From contig JADFDO010000012.1 of the NCBI GenBank assembly GCA_018262855.1, forward strand, positions 1 to 64,000: a stretch of 64,000 nt of DNA, read 5' to 3'. The notes below the pieces were generated by a model. The model ran no database searches and was not told the origin of the DNA. It worked only from the letters and a program-made list of their open reading frames with translations. This DNA is from Methanolinea sp. Its GTDB lineage: Archaea > Halobacteriota > Methanomicrobia > Methanomicrobiales > Methanospirillaceae. The translations under genes were made by a program, and so were the position numbers. Shown here piece by piece: positions 35,361 through 50,272 of the stretch. Within the stretch, counting starts at the first letter, position 1, and each line of letters starts with the position of its first letter.

Positions 35361-37799
35361 ATGATCATCGACCGCCTTATCCTCAAGAATTTCAAGAGGT
35401 TCAGGCACCAGGAGATACGGTTCCGCGACGGGATAACGGGGATTCTCGGCAACAATGGGACCGGGAAGAGCAGCATTGTCGAGGGCATCTTCTTTGCGCT
35501 GTATGGTGTCCAGGCAACAGGAATCCAGGCCGATTATATCGTCTCCTCGTATGCTGGCCCCAAGGACAAGTGCGAAGTCAGGCTCGACTTCCGTGTTGGG
35601 GGAGAGGAGTATACCGTGCTGCGGACATTTAAAAAGGGGAAAGCAATCCAGCACGATGCATCCTTCTACCGGGCCGGGAAACTCCGGGCAAGCGGAGTGA
35701 GCCAGGTCGCAGTCGAAGTGGAGAGGACGCTTGGCATGGGGCCTGTCGACTTCAGGAACACGATCTATGCCGGACAGAAAGACCTCCTCACCCTCCTTGA
35801 GAACACCCCGGGGAAGAGGAAAGAGTGGTTTCTCCGGGCGCTCGGGATCGATTATCTGAAGACCGAGAGCGACAGGATCCTGAAAGCTCGCATCGATGTG
35901 AAGGACCGGGATCTTCAGCTTCTTGACGGTGAACTCAGGGGACTTACCGCACGCCACGACCCCGCGGCCTTGAAGAGCCTGCAAGATCTGGCTCTAAAAA
36001 AGCAGGCTGCTCTCAAGAACCTTGCCCATGCTATCGGTGATCATGCCGCGAGAAGAAAAGAGATTGCATCACGGGTTGCGGAATTCATGGAGAAGAAGAA
36101 CGAGCACACCCGCCTGTTGGAGCGACAACGGTTTCTCGAATCGGAAACAGGCGACCTGGCCAGGCAGAAGGATCGGATCGAATCACAGGTTGAATCCCTC
36201 GAAGGGCAGGAGAAAGAGTATGCGGTTCTTGCTCAGCAACTCTCCGGGCTTGAAGAGAAGAAGAGATCTCTCGAGAACCTGAAAAAACAGAGAGCAGAGA
36301 ATGATTCGCTCTCCGCGGAGAAGCGGTTTGTCGAACAGGAATGTGCAATGCTTCGCACAAGGCTTGCAAAGGAACAGTCAAAGGTTGATGCACTCGTTGC
36401 CGATGCCGGAAGACTTGCCCTTCTTCTGAAGGAAATCCGGGATCTCCTCCATATTCCTCCAAAAGTACCTGATGTGGATCTTGAACGAACAGTGGTGTCA
36501 CGGGAAGCGGACCTGCAGCATACGATCGGGAACCTCTCCGGAAGGCTCGCACATCTTGTCGCGGAGAGGAAAAAACTGGCCGCGGACTGGAACACCATAC
36601 GGGAAGCTGGTGAAGGGGGCAGATGCCCTCTCTGCCACCAGACACTCGGTGCGCACTTCGGGAAGATCGATGAAGAGTTTTCATCCAGGCTCGAGCAGAT
36701 CCAGGATGACGCACTCCGGCTGAAGTGCGAGCATGATCGCCTCACCGAAGAACGGGAGGCGATAACTCGCCAGAAACCGGCTTTTGCAGAAATCCGGTCC
36801 ATCTCCGAGCGGACGAAGACCCGGGGTGCGATTGAACACGAGATGATGGATCTGTCAGGGCAGCTGAGGGAGAAGGAGGCCGCAAAGCAAACCCTCGCCG
36901 CGAAGATCCATGCGATTGCCTTTGACCCGGCTGTCTGTTCTTCGATGGAAAAGGAAGTCGCAGATCTGGAACATTACCATGCACGGTTCATAGAGATCGG
37001 GAAGGTACTCGCGCATGGCGCTGCACTGAAAACTCAAGCGAAAGACCTGGGCCAGCGGATTCTGGAGAAACAGGATGAATTGAACCAGCTCAGGCTCCAG
37101 ATCGAAAAGTCAGGGTTCGACAGCGCGACCGGGCAACAGCTCGACCGCGACCTTGACGCAGCAGAGACCGCCCTGCGGACAGCGGAAGCAGAGAATGCAC
37201 GAACAATGGAACATCTCCGGCACACACAATCGGAGATCGATAGGCTGACCCGGGAAGACCATGCGATTGAAGAGTTGAAAACGAAGAAAACAGCGCTCGA
37301 GGACGAAATCGGACTCCTCCGGATGACCCGGTCACTGATCGGCGAATACGTGATATACCTCATGCAGGTTGTCAGGAGCAGGATCGAAGGCGAGGTAAGC
37401 CGTATTCTCAATGAGATTACAGGAGGCCGGTACGAACAGGTTCTCATCGACGAGGACTTCAACATCCTTATCAGGGACATCGACAATGATTACCCCGTCG
37501 CCAGGTTCAGCGGGGGAGAGCAGGATGATATCGCAGTAGCCCTCCGGATTGCCCTCTCCCGGTACCTTGCCGAGCTCCACCAGGTCCACGAGAGCACGCT
37601 CCTCATATTCGACGAGATATTCGGGAGCCAGGATGAAGAGCGGCGTTCCAACCTTCTTTCCGCACTCCGGACCCAGGAATCGCGGTTCCCCCAGATCATC
37701 CTGATCTCGCACATCCCCGAGATCCAGGGGGAATTCTCCACCACGATGATGGTCGAGATGGGAACCGATCTCTCGAGCGTCGTACGGGAAGTGACCTGA
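35361..37799 (+). CDS. rad50: Rad50 ATPase
   Basis: An 812-residue SMC-like ATPase that tethers DNA ends and drives Mre11. The Walker A motif NNGTGKSS lies near residues 30-40, a long coiled coil follows, and the zinc hook C422-P-L-C425 joins two Rad50 molecules. The signature FSGGEQDD and Walker B LLIFDEIFGSQDE form the C-terminal ATPase half. The hook lies about halfway along, so the coiled-coil arms are short for an archaeal Rad50. Its TGA overlaps the nurA ATG by 1 nt. Confidence 0.97.
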   Translation: MIIDRLILKNFKRFRHQEIRFRDGITGILGNNGTGKSSIVEGIFFALYGVQATGIQADYIVSSYAGPKDKCEVRLDFRVGGEEYTVLRTFKKGKAIQHDASFYRAGKLRASGVSQVAVEVERTLGMGPVDFRNTIYAGQKDLLTLLENTPGKRKEWFLRALGIDYLKTESDRILKARIDVKDRDLQLLDGELRGLTARHDPAALKSLQDLALKKQAALKNLAHAIGDHAARRKEIASRVAEFMEKKNEHTRLLERQRFLESETGDLARQKDRIESQVESLEGQEKEYAVLAQQLSGLEEKKRSLENLKKQRAENDSLSAEKRFVEQECAMLRTRLAKEQSKVDALVADAGRLALLLKEIRDLLHIPPKVPDVDLERTVVSREADLQHTIGNLSGRLAHLVAERKKLAADWNTIREAGEGGRCPLCHQTLGAHFGKIDEEFSSRLEQIQDDALRLKCEHDRLTEEREAITRQKPAFAEIRSISERTKTRGAIEHEMMDLSGQLREKEAAKQTLAAKIHAIAFDPAVCSSMEKEVADLEHYHARFIEIGKVLAHGAALKTQAKDLGQRILEKQDELNQLRLQIEKSGFDSATGQQLDRDLDAAETALRTAEAENARTMEHLRHTQSEIDRLTREDHAIEELKTKKTALEDEIGLLRMTRSLIGEYVIYLMQVVRSRIEGEVSRILNEITGGRYEQVLIDEDFNILIRDIDNDYPVARFSGGEQDDIAVALRIALSRYLAELHQVHESTLLIFDEIFGSQDEERRSNLLSALRTQESRFPQIILISHIPEIQGEFSTTMMVEMGTDLSSVVREVT

Positions 37800-38827
37800 T
37801 GGCAGCGGACCGGGAATTTTCCAACGCGGCAAAGGAGATGGCGGAACGCATACGAAGGACCGTTCCCGCGGACCTTGTTGAACTATTCGAAAAGGCAAGC
37901 GGTCTTACTCCGGCAGATTTCCGGTCCTGCACACGCCAGCACTGCGGGGAAGTCAGCGCAGTGGACGGGAGCAACGCCTTCATTCTCGAGTCCGGGAGCA
38001 TGGCGGTTGTTGCCGTAAGGGCTGCCCAGAGCACCTTCTCCGGGATGGAACGGGTAAGGCGCTCCCTCACCGCCCTCCATCTCGCCCTTATCGGGAATGA
38101 AGACGAGAACGAAGATTTTGTTAGCCTATATCTCGAATGCTTCGGCCAGAGACCTGGAATTCCACTTCAGAACGATGACCGGAACAGGACTGCAGGGATC
38201 CTCCGCGATACCGTCGAATACTGGGTGATGGCAGAGATGGCCGCCACTCTCAATTCCGGCGCCCTGCTCCTGCGTGACGGGCCGCTCCGGGTCTCCCATG
38301 CAAGCCATGATCCTATTCTCTCTCGAATAGAGGACATGTGCGTGTCTCGGGAGATCATGTTCGCCGGGGTGAGCAAGCAGACGTCTGCCACATGGGGTGG
38401 CGGCCATCCGCTCCTCCCTTCTGTTGCTGGCCTTGCAGATGCCTTTAAGATCCGTGCTCCCTGGTGGATCCGGATCGATCCGGCCATGCTCGATCGAACG
38501 CAGTTTTCGCAATGGCAGCACGGAGAGATGTATGTCGCTTCCCTGCACCGGGGAGCAAGGTCTCCCCTGAAGATTGAACTCCGGAATGATCTCCCGGACC
38601 AGGAGGCACAGCAGATCATGGACCGCCTCGCGGCATGTTCAGGGGATGGAAGAATCCCCGGATATCCCTATCCTCTCTTTGATGCACACCGGACCGTCGT
38701 CCTTACGAAAGAGATCGTGGCGGATGCAAGGTCGAACCTGCTGAATCTGATCGCCTCGGCCGGAATCCGGCGACACACCTATGAGATCCTGTTTGGAGAT
38801 TACCATGATGAATTTGCACGATACTGA
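37799..38827 (+). CDS. nurA: NurA nuclease
   Basis: A 342-residue protein of the NurA family, a 5'-3' nuclease that works with HerA on resected ends. The N-terminal metal-site motif VDGSNA is at residues 55-60, and later acidic positions lie in DGPLRVS and RIDPA stretches as in the family. It starts with a 1-nt overlap after rad50 and overlaps herA by 23 nt, so the four resection genes are clearly co-translated. Confidence 0.94.
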   Translation: MAADREFSNAAKEMAERIRRTVPADLVELFEKASGLTPADFRSCTRQHCGEVSAVDGSNAFILESGSMAVVAVRAAQSTFSGMERVRRSLTALHLALIGNEDENEDFVSLYLECFGQRPGIPLQNDDRNRTAGILRDTVEYWVMAEMAATLNSGALLLRDGPLRVSHASHDPILSRIEDMCVSREIMFAGVSKQTSATWGGGHPLLPSVAGLADAFKIRAPWWIRIDPAMLDRTQFSQWQHGEMYVASLHRGARSPLKIELRNDLPDQEAQQIMDRLAACSGDGRIPGYPYPLFDAHRTVVLTKEIVADARSNLLNLIASAGIRRHTYEILFGDYHDEFARY

Positions 38828-40427
38828 TACAGAGGATTACTCGAAATTCCGATTGATCGGGAGATCAGTCCTCTCTTACCGGTTTATCGCTCCCTATGAT
38901 GCCACGCTCTATATCGGGGAGATAAAGAAGATCACGGACAATACCAAAGGAGTCACGTTCTTTGCAAAGGTCACTGACCTCTCCCATGACAGCAACTTCG
39001 CGGACACCAGGTGGGATACGCGGGTATATGCCGAACAGTTTTACGGGCTTGGCGAGGATGTCTTTCTCACCGTGGATGCTGTGCCGCTCGGGTACGTGGA
39101 TCGCTCTGATGGAAAATTCCACAAGCCAAGGACAATCCCTTCGAAATTTTCAAAGGTCGGGGAGCCCGATGCCGAAGACTTCCGGTTCCTCACTGACCTG
39201 ATGGGCGAAATAGAAGTCGGCCAGATGCGGAGCGGTCAGGACGTGATCAGGGATGTTGCGGTCAGGATCCCCTCCCGGGTGTTACCCCAGCACATGGGTG
39301 TCTTTGCAACCACCGGGATGGGTAAGAGCAACTTCATGAAGACCTTCTGCGCTTCCTGCATGAAGGAGAAGCAGTTCGGGCTCCTCGTTGTTGACCCGCA
39401 TGGGGAATATGTCAGCGGGGGAAAATCTTCCATCGGCGAACCGACAAAAGGCCTCGTCCACTACACCGGAGGGAGGGACGGTCTCGCCATCTTCACGATC
39501 CGGCCTGAATCCGACCGGAAGAAGTACGGCATGAACCGCCTCTCACTTGAGTACGATGACTTCAGGATCGGGGATCTTGCGATCCTGTATGATCTCTCCG
39601 CCGCACAGTCAGAGATCGTCGAGGCCTTCTCAAGTGTCCCGGGAAAGGAGGTTATCGAGTTCTTCAAATCCATTGATCCCGAGATCTTCCCAATCAGGGA
39701 CCCGGCAGCAGCAGGGATTGCCGAGGGCAGCCTCGCATGGAAGATAAGGAACTCGATGGGCGGACCCATCCGGGTGATCAAGAGCCATCTCGAGAATATC
39801 GTCAACGGCAACAGGGCGTTCTTCAAAGCCCAGGGCTCATCGCTTCGTGAGATCATTGATTACCTGCACGACCAAAGGGTCGTCCTTGTTGACATCCCCG
39901 ACATGAGCGAACGGAGCGAACTCTTTGTCCTCTCGATCATCACCCGGAAGATCATGGAACGGCACCGGTCAGAGACGAGGAGCTATGGGATCGATGAACG
40001 GCAGGAGGTATCCCACCAGGTCCTGATCACCATCGAAGAAGCCCAGAGGGTGCTCGCAAGCGGGGGTTCCGCAACCCAGGTCTTTCGCGAATGTGCCATG
40101 GAAGGCCGGAAATTCGGTGTCGGTCTCTGCGTGATCACCCAGCAGCCGAAGAACATTGATCCAAAGGTGCTCGCCCAGATCAACACCTTTGTCGTGATGG
40201 GCCTCGGAGACCGGGGCGACCGCGATATCATCATGGGGAGTGCAAAGCAGGACCTCTCGCGGATGGAGATCGAGATCCAGACCCTCGACCGGGGTGAAGC
40301 GATCATCAGCACCATCGGGATCCCCTTCCCTGTCAGCACCAGGATCCACAAATTCGAAGAGTATATCGCGGAGCTGAACATGTCTGAGAGGATATCCCTG
40401 TCTGATGGGCTGGAATCGGGATTTTAA
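38805..40427 (+). CDS. herA: HerA bipolar DNA helicase/translocase
   Basis: A 540-residue hexameric ATPase of the FtsK-HerA family. An N-terminal HAS-barrel (about 1-110) precedes the ATPase domain with Walker A TTGMGKSNF (K174), VVDPHGEY, Walker B ITIEEAQRV and an arginine-finger region MEGRKFGVGLCVITQQPKN. HerA pumps DNA for the NurA nuclease during strand resection. ATG at 38805 or 38808 follows GGAGATT; both lie inside the nurA 3' end. Confidence 0.96.
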   Translation: MMNLHDTDTEDYSKFRLIGRSVLSYRFIAPYDATLYIGEIKKITDNTKGVTFFAKVTDLSHDSNFADTRWDTRVYAEQFYGLGEDVFLTVDAVPLGYVDRSDGKFHKPRTIPSKFSKVGEPDAEDFRFLTDLMGEIEVGQMRSGQDVIRDVAVRIPSRVLPQHMGVFATTGMGKSNFMKTFCASCMKEKQFGLLVVDPHGEYVSGGKSSIGEPTKGLVHYTGGRDGLAIFTIRPESDRKKYGMNRLSLEYDDFRIGDLAILYDLSAAQSEIVEAFSSVPGKEVIEFFKSIDPEIFPIRDPAAAGIAEGSLAWKIRNSMGGPIRVIKSHLENIVNGNRAFFKAQGSSLREIIDYLHDQRVVLVDIPDMSERSELFVLSIITRKIMERHRSETRSYGIDERQEVSHQVLITIEEAQRVLASGGSATQVFRECAMEGRKFGVGLCVITQQPKNIDPKVLAQINTFVVMGLGDRGDRDIIMGSAKQDLSRMEIEIQTLDRGEAIISTIGIPFPVSTRIHKFEEYIAELNMSERISLSDGLESGF

Positions 40428-42143: not shown

Positions 42144-42704
42144 TCATCCCTCACAGATCTCAAGGAAAGACTTCACGACCCGGTCGTTTCTGACTTCCGG
42201 GTGAAACAATACCCCGAAGAAGGGACGCTCAGGATCCCGAATTGCCTGGATGCAGATCTCTGACTCAGCGAGGATCTCCCAACCATGAGGAGGAACGCAC
42301 GAATGGGTGTGAAGCTCGTAGGCCATGAACGATGGCGGATCGGGGAGGATCTGGTGTGGAACCGTGATCCGTATCGAAGTCATCCCGATCTCGCATCCCG
42401 GTCGCACCGATCCGCCGAATGCCAGGCAGAGGACCTGCATCCCTGCGCAGACCCCAAGCACTGGCACCCTCGCATTCCGGAGCCAGGAAAAACGCTCCAG
42501 GTTCTCCAGGAAGGCATTGTCTTTCAGCGCCGTACCGCAGATGATGATTCCCGCTGCATCCCTCAATTCGTCCTCATTGAGTGCAGTATAGTGCTGGCAT
42601 GCCCAGGGCAACCCGGCTCGCTCGACAATCCCGGCAATGGAGCAGACGAATTCATCGTAGCCAAGCGAGCCCTCACGGAAACCCGGATCGACGAGAAGGA
42701 TCAT
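42144..42704 (-). CDS. Class I glutamine amidotransferase domain protein
   Basis: A 186-residue stand-alone glutaminase of the GuaA/TrpG type. The nucleophile Cys is in GVCAGMQVL and the catalytic His-Glu pair in FHPEV; AYELHTHSC resembles the GMP-synthase small subunit. Archaeal GMP synthetases use separate glutaminase subunits, so a GuaAa role is one possibility. However its ATG lies in a 4-nt overlap with the upstream diphthine-ammonia ligase gene, so it may instead feed ammonia to that enzyme. Confidence 0.85.
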   Translation of the reverse strand: MILLVDPGFREGSLGYDEFVCSIAGIVERAGLPWACQHYTALNEDELRDAAGIIICGTALKDNAFLENLERFSWLRNARVPVLGVCAGMQVLCLAFGGSVRPGCEIGMTSIRITVPHQILPDPPSFMAYELHTHSCVPPHGWEILAESEICIQAIRDPERPFFGVLFHPEVRNDRVVKSFLEICEG

Positions 42705-43381
42705 TTTTCCTCCAAGGATGCTCGTTTCACGGAGAGGACACCCCTGAAATTACGATAGTGCCGCTCCGACTCCTGGATCACGATCTTCCTGTTGAAGAAC
42801 GGTGCATCAAGGACAAGTGTCTCGTACTCCCCCCCCTCTCCTGTGAGGGTGATGCCATAGTCCCGAGCATATCCTGAAAGGATCTCAAGTGTTGTCCCGT
42901 CAAGCTCCCTCCCGAGCCATGATTCATCGAACGGTTCGGCGAAGACTCCGGACACTACCACCCGGAACCCGGATGCCATCAGGGTATTCATGTATCGCAC
43001 GGGATCGGTATACCACAGGGGATTGAAGCACCAGAGATCCAGGTCCTTGCAGATACGCTGGATGCGGGTGGCCTGGTAGACTGACATGAGGGCCCCGGTC
43101 ACCACTCCCTCGATCCCGTATTCGGTAACAGCAATTTTTAAGACTTCCGAGAGGTCGCGAAGTTCCGCATCCTCAATTCCCTCGGTCTGGAACGATTTAA
43201 GCGGGAGACCTGCAGCGTCGGCCTGAAGGGGAACCATGTGGAGGTTCGGGGTGTGGAACATGTAGCTCTCCAGATTCTCCGGGAAAAGCGTGATCAGGCA
43301 GGCGACCTCTTCCTTTTGCATAGCCCGGAAACACGCAAAGAGCGAGTCTTTTCCACCAGAACAGAGCACACCGAGTTTCAT
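42701..43381 (-). CDS. dph6: Diphthine-ammonia ligase (DPH6-type ATP pyrophosphatase)
   Basis: A 226-residue N-type ATP pyrophosphatase. The PP-loop is SGGKDSLFA at residues 9-17, with GVVTGALMSVYQATRIQRIC and GEGGEYETLVLDAPFF, the last typical of DPH6. It adenylates diphthine on elongation factor 2 and replaces the AMP with ammonia to form diphthamide, a modified histidine found in archaea and eukaryotes. The overlapping downstream gene encodes a glutamine amidotransferase, so ammonia could come from glutamine. Confidence 0.9.
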   Translation of the reverse strand: MKLGVLCSGGKDSLFACFRAMQKEEVACLITLFPENLESYMFHTPNLHMVPLQADAAGLPLKSFQTEGIEDAELRDLSEVLKIAVTEYGIEGVVTGALMSVYQATRIQRICKDLDLWCFNPLWYTDPVRYMNTLMASGFRVVVSGVFAEPFDESWLGRELDGTTLEILSGYARDYGITLTGEGGEYETLVLDAPFFNRKIVIQESERHYRNFRGVLSVKRASLEEK

Positions 43382-43519: not shown

Positions 43520-44698
43520 TCATCGCCGGATCTGCTGAAAATTATGGTAAAGCATCCGTGAATACTCACTGGGATACTGCCACCAGTGCAAGTCGGGTTT
43601 TCCATCGTGAATGAGGTCGGGCCTGAATGCCCAGTGATACGCAGCCCGGACTTTCATGGGGTAAGTCGGCATCCTTTCGAGTATCTGGTGAAGGAGGAGT
43701 TCCTTACCCTCACGCCGCTTCTCCATGTGCGAAAGGGCGAATTTTTCGTCTTTTCCAGTTTCCGGCCAATGGGAAAAATCGTATTCATCAGGTATAGTAA
43801 ATCCTGTCCACTGCCGGGCAAGACCTACCGCTCTCTCTACTGCATTTTTTCCTTGCCATTCAACGCTTCGCGCCATGACCTTTGGCCAGAGTGCATGGGA
43901 TGTGATATACTCACCGATACGCTGGATATCAGTCACCCAGGAGAGACGAAGCATGGGCTCATGAAAAAGGCTCATGTGGATTGCAGAATAGAGGAGGGCA
44001 TCTGCAGGATCGAGACTCCTGATATGACCATTGGGGGTATGGATCCTCTCCGACCTGGCAATGAGTGCGGCAGGATTGACATTCTCGCCAGGCCCAGGAA
44101 GGAACAATGGCCTCCAGTGCAGTTCGATTACCTGCTGGTTTTTTTTCCTGGGAAAAAAACACGCATGATGATAGAACCGGGGCATAACCTGGAAGGTATC
44201 ATACCTGAGATCGTAGCCCAGACCTCGCAATACTTCCCGGCAACTCCTGTATTGTTCTGGCGCAACAAGCATATCGACGTCGCTTCCCGTTCGAAGGCCC
44301 GGCTCTTGATAGTACGCATGGCCAATCGCAGGGCTCTTTAAGACCAGCACGCGAATCCCTTCGTTCTCACACGCCATACAGACCTCTTCGGCCTGTTTCA
44401 TAGCCTGGTCGGAATGAAAACTGCTCCTGAGATATTGGATGGCACACAACCTCCTGATGTGACCGGGAGGATGGCAAAATGGTGGCATCGAGCTCAACAG
44501 GTACGAGAGGTAGGGTATGATGCCATGAGGTCCCAGCATCTCAACGAACCGATCCCATTCTTCACTGGAAAGTGATGGTGAAGGTACAGGGATTCGATAG
44601 AGTGTTCCCACCAGCCATTCAAGGCACGAATCAGGTGCATCCAGGATCTGGAAACCGTTCTTTTCAGAGGGAAAATATTCCTTGCAGTACGCTCGCAA
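43520..44698 (-). CDS. Nucleotidyltransferase of the PF14907 type (NTP_transf_5)
   Basis: A 392-residue protein with the core VLVLKSPAIGHAYY, RTGSDVDMLV (the metal D-x-D) and VIELHWRPLF, then HMSLFHEPMLRLSWVTD, all matching the uncharacterised nucleotidyltransferases that often sit in lasso-peptide and other peptide-modification clusters. A PqqD-like gene and an ABC exporter lie upstream on the same strand. The annotated start is TTG at 44698; no clear ribosome site precedes it, and the true start may differ. Substrate unknown. Confidence 0.82.
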   Translation of the reverse strand: MRAYCKEYFPSEKNGFQILDAPDSCLEWLVGTLYRIPVPSPSLSSEEWDRFVEMLGPHGIIPYLSYLLSSMPPFCHPPGHIRRLCAIQYLRSSFHSDQAMKQAEEVCMACENEGIRVLVLKSPAIGHAYYQEPGLRTGSDVDMLVAPEQYRSCREVLRGLGYDLRYDTFQVMPRFYHHACFFPRKKNQQVIELHWRPLFLPGPGENVNPAALIARSERIHTPNGHIRSLDPADALLYSAIHMSLFHEPMLRLSWVTDIQRIGEYITSHALWPKVMARSVEWQGKNAVERAVGLARQWTGFTIPDEYDFSHWPETGKDEKFALSHMEKRREGKELLLHQILERMPTYPMKVRAAYHWAFRPDLIHDGKPDLHWWQYPSEYSRMLYHNFQQIRR

Positions 44699-45328
44699 TG
44701 CTTCCGGGAGGGGAGGTGATACTGTAACCGAATCGTTCAGGGGTTTTCCCCTCCGTCCAGCTCGGTTTCAGGAAATACATATTTATCACTTTTCGGCAGC
44801 AATGGCGAATCAACAAACGGCCGGAATATTGGCCGGATATACCAGTATCGCCCATTATTCACAGGCTGTTGTATGAGGATATTGTAAAGTAAGTGCTGGA
44901 GACCGATATCCCCTGGTGTGCTAATGCCGATGATCCTGTTTGGGCTTATACGTGGAGTCAGGTTCTTCAAATCATGTGGAAAAAATGCAGGGTGCATGTG
45001 CCGGGTTCAACCTCAAGGTGCGATTCTTCCTTTATCCTTGCTGATGAATCTTTGGTTTTTCCTCTTGTGATTTCTCGTGATCAACAATATCAAAGGGAAA
45101 TCATGCATCCATCGTGATAATAATTGTGTTTCCGTTCCTGCATCCAGCACGGGAAATCTCGTCAGAGCCCCTTAAGTAAAGAGGATATTCAGTTGAACAT
45201 GGCATTAGAGCGGATATGGTGGTATTTCTTTCGGTTCGGTGTAACTTTCGAAACCCATGAGGAATGCGACCGGGAATTCAAAAGAACCAAATGCATCTGT
45301 TCCAATTCAATCCAGATCGAATACCCGT
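44699..45328 (-). other. Gap of about 630 bp between two cassette genes
   Basis: No convincing gene is seen. It is A/T-richer than the flanking genes. Short minus-strand frames exist, for example one of 31 codons (about 45012-45107) and one of 35 codons (about 45190-45297), but none has a recognisable leader, cleavage site or core of a ribosomal peptide. It could be decayed sequence where a maturase or precursor was lost. The ABC exporter gene ends at its right side. Confidence 0.4.
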
Positions 45329-47179
45329 TCACCGGTACTGTAGAGCCTGGGTTTCGTAGAGACGAGCATATCGCCCCTTCCGGGCAATGAGTTCATCGTG
45401 TGTTCCTTCCTCAACGATCCTTCCCGCTTCCAGGAAAAAGATGCGATCTGCAGCTCTGACCGAGGAGAGCCTGTGGCTGATGATGACCGTTGTCCGGCCT
45501 TCAGAAATCTTCTTTAACTTTCGGAGCACCTCGGCTTCGGCAAGAGGGTCGAGGGAACTGGTCGGTTCATCCATGACGATGAGTTGTGCATCCCTGATAA
45601 ATGCCCTTGCCAGTGCAATTTTTTGCCATTCCCCTATCGAGAGTTCCGCTCCCTTCTCGAAGAGTTTTCCAAGGGTCGTTTCATAACGCTGGTCGAGCTG
45701 ATCGATCACGGAGTCTGCTCCGGATGCTTCTGCTGCTTTTACCACCTGATCGTGATCCACCGGTTGCCCCCCACTCCCGAATGCGATGTTCTCCCAGGCG
45801 GTCAGGTTATACCGTGCATAGTCCTGGAAAATGATGCTGATCTCCTTTCGCAAATCGAGGGTCCTGAACATGCGGATATCGTTTCCATCAAGGGTGATCC
45901 TGCCCGATTCCGGATCATAGAGCCTGCAGAGAAGTTTGATCAGCGTGGTCTTCCCGGACCCGTTCTCCCCGACAAGGGCAACGGTCTTCCCTGCGGGTAT
46001 CATCAGGTTGACATCTGTAAGAGTGAGGGATTCCGATTCAGGGTAACGGAAATGCACATGGTCAAAAGAGATCCCGGTTGTCACTGGCATAGGAACCGGG
46101 AGCGGGCGTTCCGGTTCCATCACCTTCGGGCGGAGATCAAGGAATTCATAGAGGTTCGTGAGAAAGATCGTATCTTCATAGAGGCCTGCAAGGCCTGAGA
46201 GCAACGTATTCATGAATGACTGGCTCTGCTGGATAAGTCCGAAGTAAAGAACGAGATCTCCAAGTGTGATACTTCCGTTGACGGCATTGTATGCAATGAA
46301 AAGAAATGAGATGAAAAGAGCCAGTACGGCAAACGATTGTGCAAGAATGTCCGCAATGACCTTCTTCCTGGAGATTGACAGGTGTTCCTGCCGGATATAC
46401 GTCCGGAGATCCCTGTAACGTTCGATAAACCGTCGGCCCAGGTTGAAGAGCCTGATCTCCTTGGCGTGGCTGTCCCCGGTGAGCATCCAGTGAAAATAAT
46501 ACGATTCCCGCTCTTTCGAAGTCCTGCTCTTTTTCCACTGGTATTCGATATCGGCGTATTTCCAGCGGACGTAGGCAACCGGCGCGACCGCAGCAAGTAA
46601 CAGGACTGCAAGAGTCCAGCTGAAAGAAACGAGGAGGATTAATGTGGCACAGAGCGTAATGGCACTCTGGCCAACCTGTACAAGGCCGTTCACTATCCTG
46701 GTCGGTCTCGCAGGGGCTTCGGCCTGGGCCCGGTAGAATGCGTCATAATAGGTGGGGTTCTCGTAGTATTCCAGGTCTACCTCGATAGATTTTGCATGGA
46801 TAATCTCTTGGACGTGATCGGTGGTAAACGCCGACTGGGCCTCGCTTATATAATTTGAGAGGGATCGTGAGAGGATTGTAACCAGGAGGAGGACGCAAAA
46901 AATGATAAGCAGAGGGAGTATGGCTCCGAAAGATCCCTCGAGAGGACCTGCCGCTATTCCTGTTGTGACGGTATCGATGATGAGTTTTAAGACGTAGAGC
47001 GTCGCCAGCGGAAGGATCCCCTGGAGGACGATGAGAATCCCTCCTGCAAGGGTCCAGCCGGGTGCACACGCCCAGACAAGGGACACTGCCCGGCGGATAC
47101 CAAAGAGCGTCTGGATCCTGTGACCGAGATCACGTAATCCTGCTGGTGCAGGTGGTACTTCTGTCATCAGGTCGTCCAC
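45329..47179 (-). CDS. ABC exporter with fused membrane and ATPase domains
   Basis: A 616-residue half-transporter: six membrane helices (about 40-335) and a nucleotide-binding domain (about 365-610) with Walker A GENGSGKTTLI, signature LSIGEWQKIALARA, Walker B LIVMDEPTSSLD and H-loop ISHRLSSV. The GEWQ signature is common in exporters of peptide-modification clusters. It begins with GTG directly after the PqqD-like stop codon and so is translated with it. It likely exports a peptide or small molecule made by this cassette. The ATG at 47167 is an alternative start. Confidence 0.92.
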   Translation of the reverse strand: MDDLMTEVPPAPAGLRDLGHRIQTLFGIRRAVSLVWACAPGWTLAGGILIVLQGILPLATLYVLKLIIDTVTTGIAAGPLEGSFGAILPLLIIFCVLLLVTILSRSLSNYISEAQSAFTTDHVQEIIHAKSIEVDLEYYENPTYYDAFYRAQAEAPARPTRIVNGLVQVGQSAITLCATLILLVSFSWTLAVLLLAAVAPVAYVRWKYADIEYQWKKSRTSKERESYYFHWMLTGDSHAKEIRLFNLGRRFIERYRDLRTYIRQEHLSISRKKVIADILAQSFAVLALFISFLFIAYNAVNGSITLGDLVLYFGLIQQSQSFMNTLLSGLAGLYEDTIFLTNLYEFLDLRPKVMEPERPLPVPMPVTTGISFDHVHFRYPESESLTLTDVNLMIPAGKTVALVGENGSGKTTLIKLLCRLYDPESGRITLDGNDIRMFRTLDLRKEISIIFQDYARYNLTAWENIAFGSGGQPVDHDQVVKAAEASGADSVIDQLDQRYETTLGKLFEKGAELSIGEWQKIALARAFIRDAQLIVMDEPTSSLDPLAEAEVLRKLKKISEGRTTVIISHRLSSVRAADRIFFLEAGRIVEEGTHDELIARKGRYARLYETQALQYR

Positions 47180-47521
47180 TCACAAAAATATATGATGAGG
47201 ATGATGCAGGGAACGATATATTTTATCAAATCCACTCAACTGTTTTATCTTTACGAATACTTGAGCAATGCATACCGTGTCATTTTTTATCGGAATAACC
47301 TCACATGTCTCTTCCCCGATCTCAAATTCTGACATGAGAGAATCCCTGATCTCTTTTACCGGTATGGACGTCTGCAGCATGTTCCAAATCCTCGCACCGA
47401 CAGGGTTCATCGTGTAATACATTCCCTGATCAAGGGAGAGGATTACCGCTTCTCCGGCAAGATCGCAGGAGACCTGGTTCTTTGCCGCACAGACCATTGA
47501 TTGCATTGATATCCTGCCCAT
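47180..47521 (-). CDS. PqqD-like peptide-recognition protein
   Basis: A 113-residue protein with the PqqD/RRE pattern: VSCDLAGEAVILSLDQGMYYTMNPVGARIW, then MLQTSIPVKEIRDSLMSEFEIGEETC. Such domains bind the leader of a precursor peptide and hand it to a modifying enzyme. The C-terminal part after residue 75 is divergent, with what looks like an insertion. The ATG at 47521 follows AAGGGGGT. It is the first gene of the minus-strand cassette with the ABC exporter and nucleotidyltransferase. Confidence 0.8.
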   Translation of the reverse strand: MGRISMQSMVCAAKNQVSCDLAGEAVILSLDQGMYYTMNPVGARIWNMLQTSIPVKEIRDSLMSEFEIGEETCEVIPIKNDTVCIAQVFVKIKQLSGFDKIYRSLHHPHHIFL

Positions 47522-47677
47522 ACAGATACCCCCTTCTCTTCTATACCTGTACTTATCATTAACAAAAAGGGTGGTGACATCCTTCTCTTTCCATCCGCTC
47601 GATCCGAAAACGCAGGATCATACATTGAATCATTGCAATTACCTTAATGGGATTCCCGTACAATCTTGTGTTACGGA

Positions 47678-50272
47678 ATGAAAAAACCAGGATTTTCAGA
47701 TATTTTTAAGAACCTGTCCTCCCGTGGCTCATTCGGAAGATACCTCCCACTTATCTTAATCCTCCTTATAGCATGTGTCGGATTCCTCCTCCGCATTCTC
47801 CCGGTATTTTTCATCCACGACGATCCCCTCAATGGTATCGAGAGTGTTGACACGCTCTACCAGCTCCGCCAGGTCGAGTTGATGGTAGCAAATTTCCCAT
47901 CCTACCCATTCTTTGACCCGATGACCTTCTTCCCATATGGTTATCTCATCAACTGGGGTCCCGTCTACGGGTATATCCTGACGTTATTCTGTATTCTAGC
48001 CGGAGCTGCCACCCGGGTAGAGATTGTGAGGACGGCAGTATTCGTTCCGCCACTCCTCGCTATTCTCACCATTCCACTCGTCTTTTTGATAGGGAAAAAG
48101 ATCCATTCGACCTGGTGCGGGATTGTTGCGGCGGCAATCCTCGCGGTGATACCGGGCTCGTTCTTTTTCATTTCCTACTTCGGAGTAATAGACCACCATG
48201 TCGTAGAAGTTCTCTTCGGCACTGCATTCTGCCTCTCCTACATGACCGCTCTCATGATGATAAACCGGAAAGACTGGAGCGGCGAAGCCTTCAAAAAACA
48301 GGCATTCATCCTGGTCTCGATTCTTTCCGGTCTCCTCTACCTTCTTGGCTTCCTCAATATGCCAACGATGATCATCTTTGCGCTCGTCGCCACAGTGTTC
48401 ACCTTCCTGCAGTATCTCCTGGATTTCAGGGCAGGCGCACAGAACGTGAACCTTCTCATCCTGAATGCCTGCGTGTTCGGAATTGCAGCAGCCGGTTCAT
48501 ATCTTTTCATGCAGGAATCCAGGACATTTCTCCTGACAATGTATTCTCTTGGTCACCCTGTCATGTATCTCTTGATCATCGCGGGAACCGCAGCACTCTT
48601 CCTCTTCGGACAGGTTCTCCATGGACGTTCATTCAGGACGTATATGCTTATCCTGTCGGGACTCATTGCCGGGTGCATCACAGGTATCGCTCTTCTTGTT
48701 CCCCATATTCTCGGGACCGCCCTCAACGGCCTCCTTGAAATCTTTGGACAGAAAGAACTGGCAATTACCATTGTGGAGACGGAAGTGATCGGCGCTGCAG
48801 GCCTTTGGGAACTTTATTCCTTCGGACTGATCCTTTTTTTTGCGGGGATAGTTCTCCTGGGCTACAGGATATGGAAGGAAAAGAGGCCTGAATTCCTCTT
48901 CATCGTCACATGGACCGTACTCATACTTCTTGCATCCTACCAGCACCTTCGCTATAATTACCTCCTCGCAGTCCCCTTCGCGCTGGTCTCGGGGTATTTC
49001 GTCTTGAGCGTAATCGGATACGGGGATCGGGAATACCGGTCGTTCCTTGCATGGCTGTCCCTAAAAAAAGCAGAGCAGGCTGAAACGGGAGGATCACGGA
49101 ATAAGAAGAAAAAGATTCGCGTGCAGAAGGAAAAAGCGCCTGACGAATGGAGAGAGATTGCTGTTGGATGCACCATCCTTCTCTGCGCAGCATTCATCCT
49201 CAACGCAGTATGGGTTGATCTACACAGGGAACCTGTAACAGTTCCAGCCGGATGGAGAGATTCGATGGCCTGGATTGAGAAGAATACACCGGACCCGGGC
49301 ATCGTTTATACGAACATCTACACCTACCAGGATTTTTCTTATCCCCCGCAGGCATACGGGATCATGTCATGGTGGGATTACGGCCACCTTATCACATATT
49401 TTGGCAAGCGTATCCCGAACAGCAATCCCTTCCAAGCAGGTGTCCGGGGGAAGAACGGGGCAGCTGCGTTTTTCATGGAACAGGATGAGAACACTGCAGA
49501 AACGGTCATCCAGGCCCTCGGATCACGGTACATCGTGACCGATGTAACGATGGCCACCTCAAAATTCTGGGCGATAGCAACATGGTATAACACCCCCAAT
49601 ACAACATCCCCCTACATCATTCGGTTCAACACCCCTGTTGATCCTGCGAAGAGATCCTTCCAGTCACTCCAGTTCCTGACACCAGCGTATCACAGCACGC
49701 TCGTCACGAGGCTTCATCTCTTTGACGGTTCAGAAAAGACTCCAGCATATGTGACCTATATCGAATATATACCTCCATCAAAGGAAGGGTCCATCCCAGA
49801 GATTCAATCCATCGAAAATATTTCATGGGATATGTTGCATGATCATATCAATTCAAGGGCTGGGGAGATAGCCCCCTCTCTTCAGGCAATGGTGGTCACA
49901 AAAGACTACATGATCCCCGCTTCAAAAATTCCCGCATTATCTCATTTCCGCCTCATCTACGAATCTCCGGATAATGCATCTCTGCCAGAGGGATACGATA
50001 TACGCGAGGAGTTGAAGCAGGTCAAGATATTTGAATATGTGAAAGGGGCACGAGTACAGGGTTCGGGGCGCATCCAGATTGACCTCGAGACAAATACCGG
50101 GCGCCGGTTCTCGTATATCCAGGAAAGCAGGGATGGAGAATTCGTCGTTCCATATGCAACAGACACTCCGAATGGTGCAGTAAGCGCCCTTGGCCCCTAT
50201 AAAATTATTCACGAGAACAGGACCGTCCAGGTTTCAGAGTCAGCGATCCAGAAAGGCCTGGTGGTGATGTAG
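47678..50272 (+). CDS. aglB: AglB oligosaccharyltransferase (STT3 family)
   Basis: An 864-residue membrane enzyme that transfers lipid-linked glycans to Asn in exported proteins. The N-terminal half has about 12-13 helices, with acidic loop residues in GIESVDTLYQLRQVE and GVIDHHVVEVLFG. The soluble C-terminal half carries the catalytic-site motif WWDYGHLI. The ATG at 47678 is preferred over a TTG at 47666. A divergent gene lies 157 bp upstream. It would glycosylate S-layer and surface proteins such as those at 23.5-29 kb. Confidence 0.95.
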   Translation: MKKPGFSDIFKNLSSRGSFGRYLPLILILLIACVGFLLRILPVFFIHDDPLNGIESVDTLYQLRQVELMVANFPSYPFFDPMTFFPYGYLINWGPVYGYILTLFCILAGAATRVEIVRTAVFVPPLLAILTIPLVFLIGKKIHSTWCGIVAAAILAVIPGSFFFISYFGVIDHHVVEVLFGTAFCLSYMTALMMINRKDWSGEAFKKQAFILVSILSGLLYLLGFLNMPTMIIFALVATVFTFLQYLLDFRAGAQNVNLLILNACVFGIAAAGSYLFMQESRTFLLTMYSLGHPVMYLLIIAGTAALFLFGQVLHGRSFRTYMLILSGLIAGCITGIALLVPHILGTALNGLLEIFGQKELAITIVETEVIGAAGLWELYSFGLILFFAGIVLLGYRIWKEKRPEFLFIVTWTVLILLASYQHLRYNYLLAVPFALVSGYFVLSVIGYGDREYRSFLAWLSLKKAEQAETGGSRNKKKKIRVQKEKAPDEWREIAVGCTILLCAAFILNAVWVDLHREPVTVPAGWRDSMAWIEKNTPDPGIVYTNIYTYQDFSYPPQAYGIMSWWDYGHLITYFGKRIPNSNPFQAGVRGKNGAAAFFMEQDENTAETVIQALGSRYIVTDVTMATSKFWAIATWYNTPNTTSPYIIRFNTPVDPAKRSFQSLQFLTPAYHSTLVTRLHLFDGSEKTPAYVTYIEYIPPSKEGSIPEIQSIENISWDMLHDHINSRAGEIAPSLQAMVVTKDYMIPASKIPALSHFRLIYESPDNASLPEGYDIREELKQVKIFEYVKGARVQGSGRIQIDLETNTGRRFSYIQESRDGEFVVPYATDTPNGAVSALGPYKIIHENRTVQVSESAIQKGLVVM

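Follow-up and report, generated by a model that had tools for sequence, protein, structure and literature searches.

A class I glutamine amidotransferase gene paired with dph6 in Methanomicrobiales: a candidate two-subunit, glutamine-dependent diphthamide synthetase

Two adjoining genes in the 64,000-nucleotide stretch of Methanolinea sp. DNA analysed here (the window), one for Dph6 and the other for a class I glutamine amidotransferase (GAT), probably encode a single enzyme, a two-subunit glutamine-dependent diphthamide synthetase. We put the probability of this reading at about 0.78, inferring the complex, the transfer of ammonia and the use of glutamine as donor in vivo from the presence of both genes, an intact catalytic triad in the window GAT, co-conservation, gene fusions, the shared gain and loss of the two genes, and a genome that also has dph2 and dph5. 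An enzyme of this kind had been proposed in a sequence-only reading of the window, and comparative genomics supports the proposal: GuaAa is encoded separately, the pair is conserved and fusions occur.

The gene pair and its products

Both genes lie on the minus strand and start with ATG. Dph6, diphthine--ammonia ligase (226 aa; 42701..43381), is read first, followed by the GAT subunit (186 aa; 42144..42704), and the stop codon of dph6 and the start codon of the GAT gene share the ATGA at 42701..42704. The 4-nt overlap reported in the sequence-only reading was thus confirmed. As the overlap is conserved, the two genes are likely to be translationally coupled. Three other gene groups were observed around the pair. 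A nucleotidyltransferase (NTP_transf_5), an 86-aa open reading frame of no assigned family, an ABC transporter and a PqqD-like protein are encoded consecutively at 43520-47521 (minus strand) and look like a cluster of the RiPP (peptide natural product) type. Overlapping genes for the NurA nuclease and the HerA helicase, the usual archaeal end-resection pair, lie at 37799-40427 (plus strand), and the oligosaccharyltransferase AglB (STT3) is encoded at 47666-50272 (plus strand).

The product of the first gene scored 214 bits against PF01902 (Pfam) and 263.7 bits against the TIGR03679 'diphthine--ammonia ligase' equivalog (NCBIfam), above the cut-off of 197.3. It carries the PP-loop SGGKDS at residue 8, SVYQ at 100 and EGGEYE at 182, and so has both the SGGxDS and the EGGExE motifs of archaeal Dph6. 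Its solved relatives are PH1257 (2d13) and PF0828 (3rk1). Profile searches, on which the paralogue counts for this genome are based, found no other PF01902 gene in the 99%-complete assembly, while the pathway partners dph2 (259 bits) and dph5 (280 bits) were both detected above their cut-offs. Five close relatives (G011, G002, G003, G007 and G008) each have a second Dph6 match, which has no counterpart in the window genome.

The second product matched PF00117 with 74.9 bits (Pfam cut-off 22.8), a score that places it among class I GATs. Its Cys-His-Glu triad is whole, with C86 in GVCAGMQ and H168 and E170 in FHPEV, the two motifs on which its original identification had relied. Residues specific to the family are E18, G57-T58, D62 and FHPEVRN. 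An AlphaFold2 model of the subunit (pLDDT 95.8) had archaeal GuaAa proteins as its closest solved folds, with a TM-score of about 0.82.

GuaAa, the glutaminase subunit of GMP synthetase, is indeed the family closest to the pair GAT by profile, sequence and fold, and the alternative had been raised that the gene is a GuaAa that has moved next to dph6. This failed on several counts. The window GAT scored 76 bits against the GuaAa model NF001975, far below the cut-off of 198, whereas the genuine GuaAa of the genome, with 232.7 bits, lies on another contig (G000:C1:33326-33874). The presence of this full GuaAa means that the pair GAT is neither the only one in the genome nor a displaced copy. An above-cut-off GuaAa was likewise found elsewhere in 49 of 50 further pair-bearing genomes, the exception being a draft assembly of about 100 contigs. 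The pair GATs formed a single clade (SH-aLRT 98) and GuaAa a separate one (97) in a quick tree whose outgroup branches were long. This tree took in GuaAa, TrpG, HisH, CarA and a further GAT encoded in the genome; it placed the pair-GAT clade outside all of them and left its nearest relative open. We therefore rule out a relocated GuaAa as having next to no probability. Since GuaAa is the best-scoring family model, annotation pipelines could nevertheless mislabel the pair GAT as GuaAa. In one genus (g12; L089 and L091), the pair has the genuine GuaAa gene as a near neighbour, at a distance of about 3 kb.

Conservation, fusion and joint exchange of the pair

The GAT and Dph6 were searched for in 391 genomes of the phylum with a completeness of at least 90%. 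Dph6 was present in 384 and the GAT in 87 (our own count, with GuaAa-type partial hits set aside), the latter distributed over Methanomicrobiales families f1-f5 and over f21, f27 and f9, three family-level groups outside that order. Loci were extracted and compared by profiles. Dph6 precedes the GAT on the same strand in each of the 99 non-redundant loci. The spacing, in which a few start codons are uncertain, was an exact 4-nt overlap, the one seen in the window, in 80 loci and another short gap or overlap (up to 154 nt) in 15; the remaining four comprised three fusions and a single pair with 1.4 kb between its genes. This sole distant pair (L101, minus strand) has a TnpB-like gene (388 aa, with a CPEC..CKC zinc motif) between Dph6 and the GAT. 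At L103 and L104 (f2, g18), which have a gap of 90-154 nt after Dph6, the GAT carries an insert between its nucleophile half and its FHPEV half.

Gene overlaps are frequent in the operons of archaea, and the two genes might be chance or merely operonic neighbours that share no function. As a control for gene order, we followed SepCysS, the other neighbour of the pair in the window, which stayed close to the pair at no more than 28 of 110 loci, each from a close relative. That the same overlap persists at so many loci while SepCysS decays argues for linkage beyond chance. Mere neighbourhood is also at odds with the invariant same-strand linkage, with the fusions and with the joint replacement of the GAT and the Dph6 type described below; we reject it, chiefly on the fusions and the control, as having almost no chance of being correct. 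Conservation of the pair, on which the sequence-only reading had made its proposal depend, is thus borne out in Methanomicrobiales and in three groups beyond.

The three fusions are in frame and have a linker. Two (L073 and L074) belong to one genus of f21 and the third (L075) to f2; both domains were detected by Pfam and NCBIfam in L073 and L075. The identical layout of L073 and L074 disfavours an assembly error. AlphaFold2 modelling of L073 (437 residues) gave a pLDDT of 91.5 and a pTM of 0.84, and this high pTM for a two-domain chain suggests that the predicted domains take up a definite arrangement. A Foldseek search with the model yielded one-domain matches, the Dph6 part to PF0828/PH1257 and the GAT part to archaeal GuaAa, and no solved structure covering both domains together.

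When 'GAT present' was mapped as a label onto a tree built from 123 Dph6 proteins, it required 2 changes, as compared with a mean of 23 after shuffling. The Dph6 proteins of GAT-less Methanomicrobiales (families f1, f3, f4 and f6) fall into a different clade, which a long branch separates from the rest, and all five that were scanned scored above the Dph6 equivalog cut-off. Both kinds, with and without a GAT, occur within families f1, f3 and f4 and within individual genera (g5 and g20 among them), indicating that the Dph6 type and the GAT were swapped as a unit. L128 (G322) accounts for the other change on the tree: a pair-type Dph6 is kept there, the GAT is lost and the next gene starts shortly downstream. 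Outside Methanomicrobiales the association is patchier, with f9 containing genomes both with and without the GAT, and many relatives have Dph6 and no GAT. Distances of the GAT and of Dph6 were correlated (r = 0.86), partly as a result of shared ancestry.

Loss of the nucleophile and rival functions

The full triad was found in 73 of the 98 GATs on the tree, across all family-level groups, and was broken in the other 25, a distribution needing 5 changes. Among the broken GATs, 24 lack the Cys and one (L099) lacks the His only. All Methanoculleus-type GATs sampled (f5, g21) read GISSGM, with Ser in place of Cys, while those of one f21 group (g60) read GISTGAA or GIATGAA and have lost the His too; the nucleophile is replaced by Gly in the fusion L075 and by Ser in L025. 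The nucleophile was lost at least four times with the pair retained, in the sampled Methanoculleus, in one f21 genus and in others. The term glutaminase, used of this subunit from the outset, holds for the window genome and for most lineages and fails for the 24 GATs without a nucleophile; the broken triads imply that some lineages can do without glutaminase activity.

The dead GATs still adjoin Dph6. Their dN/dS was 0.25-0.31, as compared with 0.14-0.29 in active groups, with dS near saturation in some; values near or beyond the top of the active range are consistent with some loss of constraint. In these lineages the GAT probably persists as a relic or as a structural subunit of a free-ammonia enzyme, by analogy with CPS1, in which a Cys-to-Ser change made the enzyme ammonia-dependent while the GAT domain was retained (PMC4655335). 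CPS1 parallels the Methanoculleus GATs in keeping a class I domain after the same substitution, but it is an ATP-grasp synthetase of another pathway. The literature on high-ammonia biogas reactors mentions Methanoculleus; a tie between its Cys loss and high-ammonia habitats is only suggestive.

These dead GATs lend weight to the main rival of a glutamine-dependent synthetase, namely that the GAT-like protein is chiefly a structural or regulatory subunit of Dph6, acting in EF-2 docking, stability or glutamine sensing rather than as an ammonia donor, its triad serving for sensing or being ancestral. The pair has outlived repeated loss of the nucleophile, the dead proteins remain under constraint, and even a fused GAT (L075) has no Cys. 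A whole triad in nearly three-quarters of the GATs and in every family-level group is, however, hard to explain without hydrolysis; the raised dN/dS of the dead groups fits a partial release from constraint, and CPS1 offers a precedent for loss of glutaminase activity with the domain kept. We regard a mainly structural or regulatory role as rather improbable, though it is the strongest of the rivals. It is less probable still that the pair amidates a substrate other than diphthine, Dph6 having been neofunctionalised. Members of PF01902 are known to differ in function (PMC3541065), but the window protein is the sole member in a nearly complete genome that has dph2 and dph5, it scores well above the Dph6 equivalog cut-off and its EGGExE motif is kept, so that we consider this a slim prospect.

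A proposed glutamine-dependent Dph6 and its known relatives

In the synthetase that we propose, Dph6, a PP-loop N-type ATP pyrophosphatase, would adenylate the diphthine carboxylate on EF-2, and the class I GAT subunit would hydrolyse glutamine at Cys86. By analogy with GMP synthetase, the ammonia released would pass to the active site of Dph6, which would hold the adenylated carboxylate. Archaeal GMP synthetase (GuaAa and GuaAb) likewise joins a class I GAT, of the family and fold nearest to the pair GAT, to a substrate-adenylating PP-loop ATP pyrophosphatase, and its subunits, too, occur both separately (in archaea) and fused (elsewhere). It differs in that the pair GAT forms its own clade, below the GuaAa cut-off, and has Dph6 rather than GuaAb as its partner.

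An ammonia source attached to Dph6 is not without precedent. When Dph6 was proposed in 2012, its ammonia source was described as possibly variable: a few archaea have fusions to a class II GAT of the AsnB type, and many eukaryotes have RidA domains (PMC3541065). The AsnB-Dph6 fusions of Methanosarcinaceae and others resemble the window pair in that a GAT attached to Dph6 was proposed to supply ammonia (PMC3541065). Their GAT, however, is of the unrelated class II (Ntn) type, lies N-terminally and comes with an additional Asn synthase domain, whereas the pair has a class I triad GAT that is C-terminal (in fusions) or a separate gene; only PF01902 and PF00117 were found in the window pair, which lacks the features of the class II fusions. 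AsnB-Dph6 fusions were confirmed in the phylum. Cys2 is kept in L158 and L162 (f8 members keep it) and is replaced in two others, by Ser (MSRI..) in L160 (f10; L160:1152-3284, plus strand) and by Thr (MTGI..) in L161 (f18; L161:1521-3428, minus strand). Together with the dead class I GATs, these show that both kinds of attached glutaminase have lost their nucleophile in some lineages. Eukaryotic DPH6 with C-terminal RidA/YjgF also carries an additional module proposed as an ammonia supplier (PMC3541065, PMC3585130), but one of a deaminase type and not a glutaminase. How archaeal Dph6 manages without extra domains was left open in PMC3585130.

The sequence-only reading had set the pair against a Dph6 described as a free-ammonia enzyme. 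The idea of a glutamine-dependent Dph6 is older than that reading, having been preceded by the AsnB fusion proposal (PMC3541065); no account of a class I GAT-Dph6 pair was found in the open-licence PMC literature. Judged from its genes, the pair would be a glutamine-dependent amidating synthetase of a known general type, Dph6 with an attached GAT, in a class I version that is new within that literature.

In many methanogenic archaea and related lineages, the enzyme that completes diphthamide on EF-2 has a glutamine-splitting subunit of its own encoded beside it, at times as a fusion, and glutamine, not free ammonia, is therefore the probable nitrogen source of the final step. It is possible, though doubtful, that a captured class I glutaminase gates this last step of EF-2 maturation by glutamine, tying completion of the translation factor to nitrogen status, and that it later decayed, as in Methanoculleus, to a pseudo-subunit for EF-2 docking or ammonia uptake. 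The Dph6-GAT pair provides a concrete second polypeptide that can be tested, and the occurrence of intact, dead, fused and absent glutaminases in close species constitutes a natural experiment on the gain and loss of glutamine dependence in amidotransferases.
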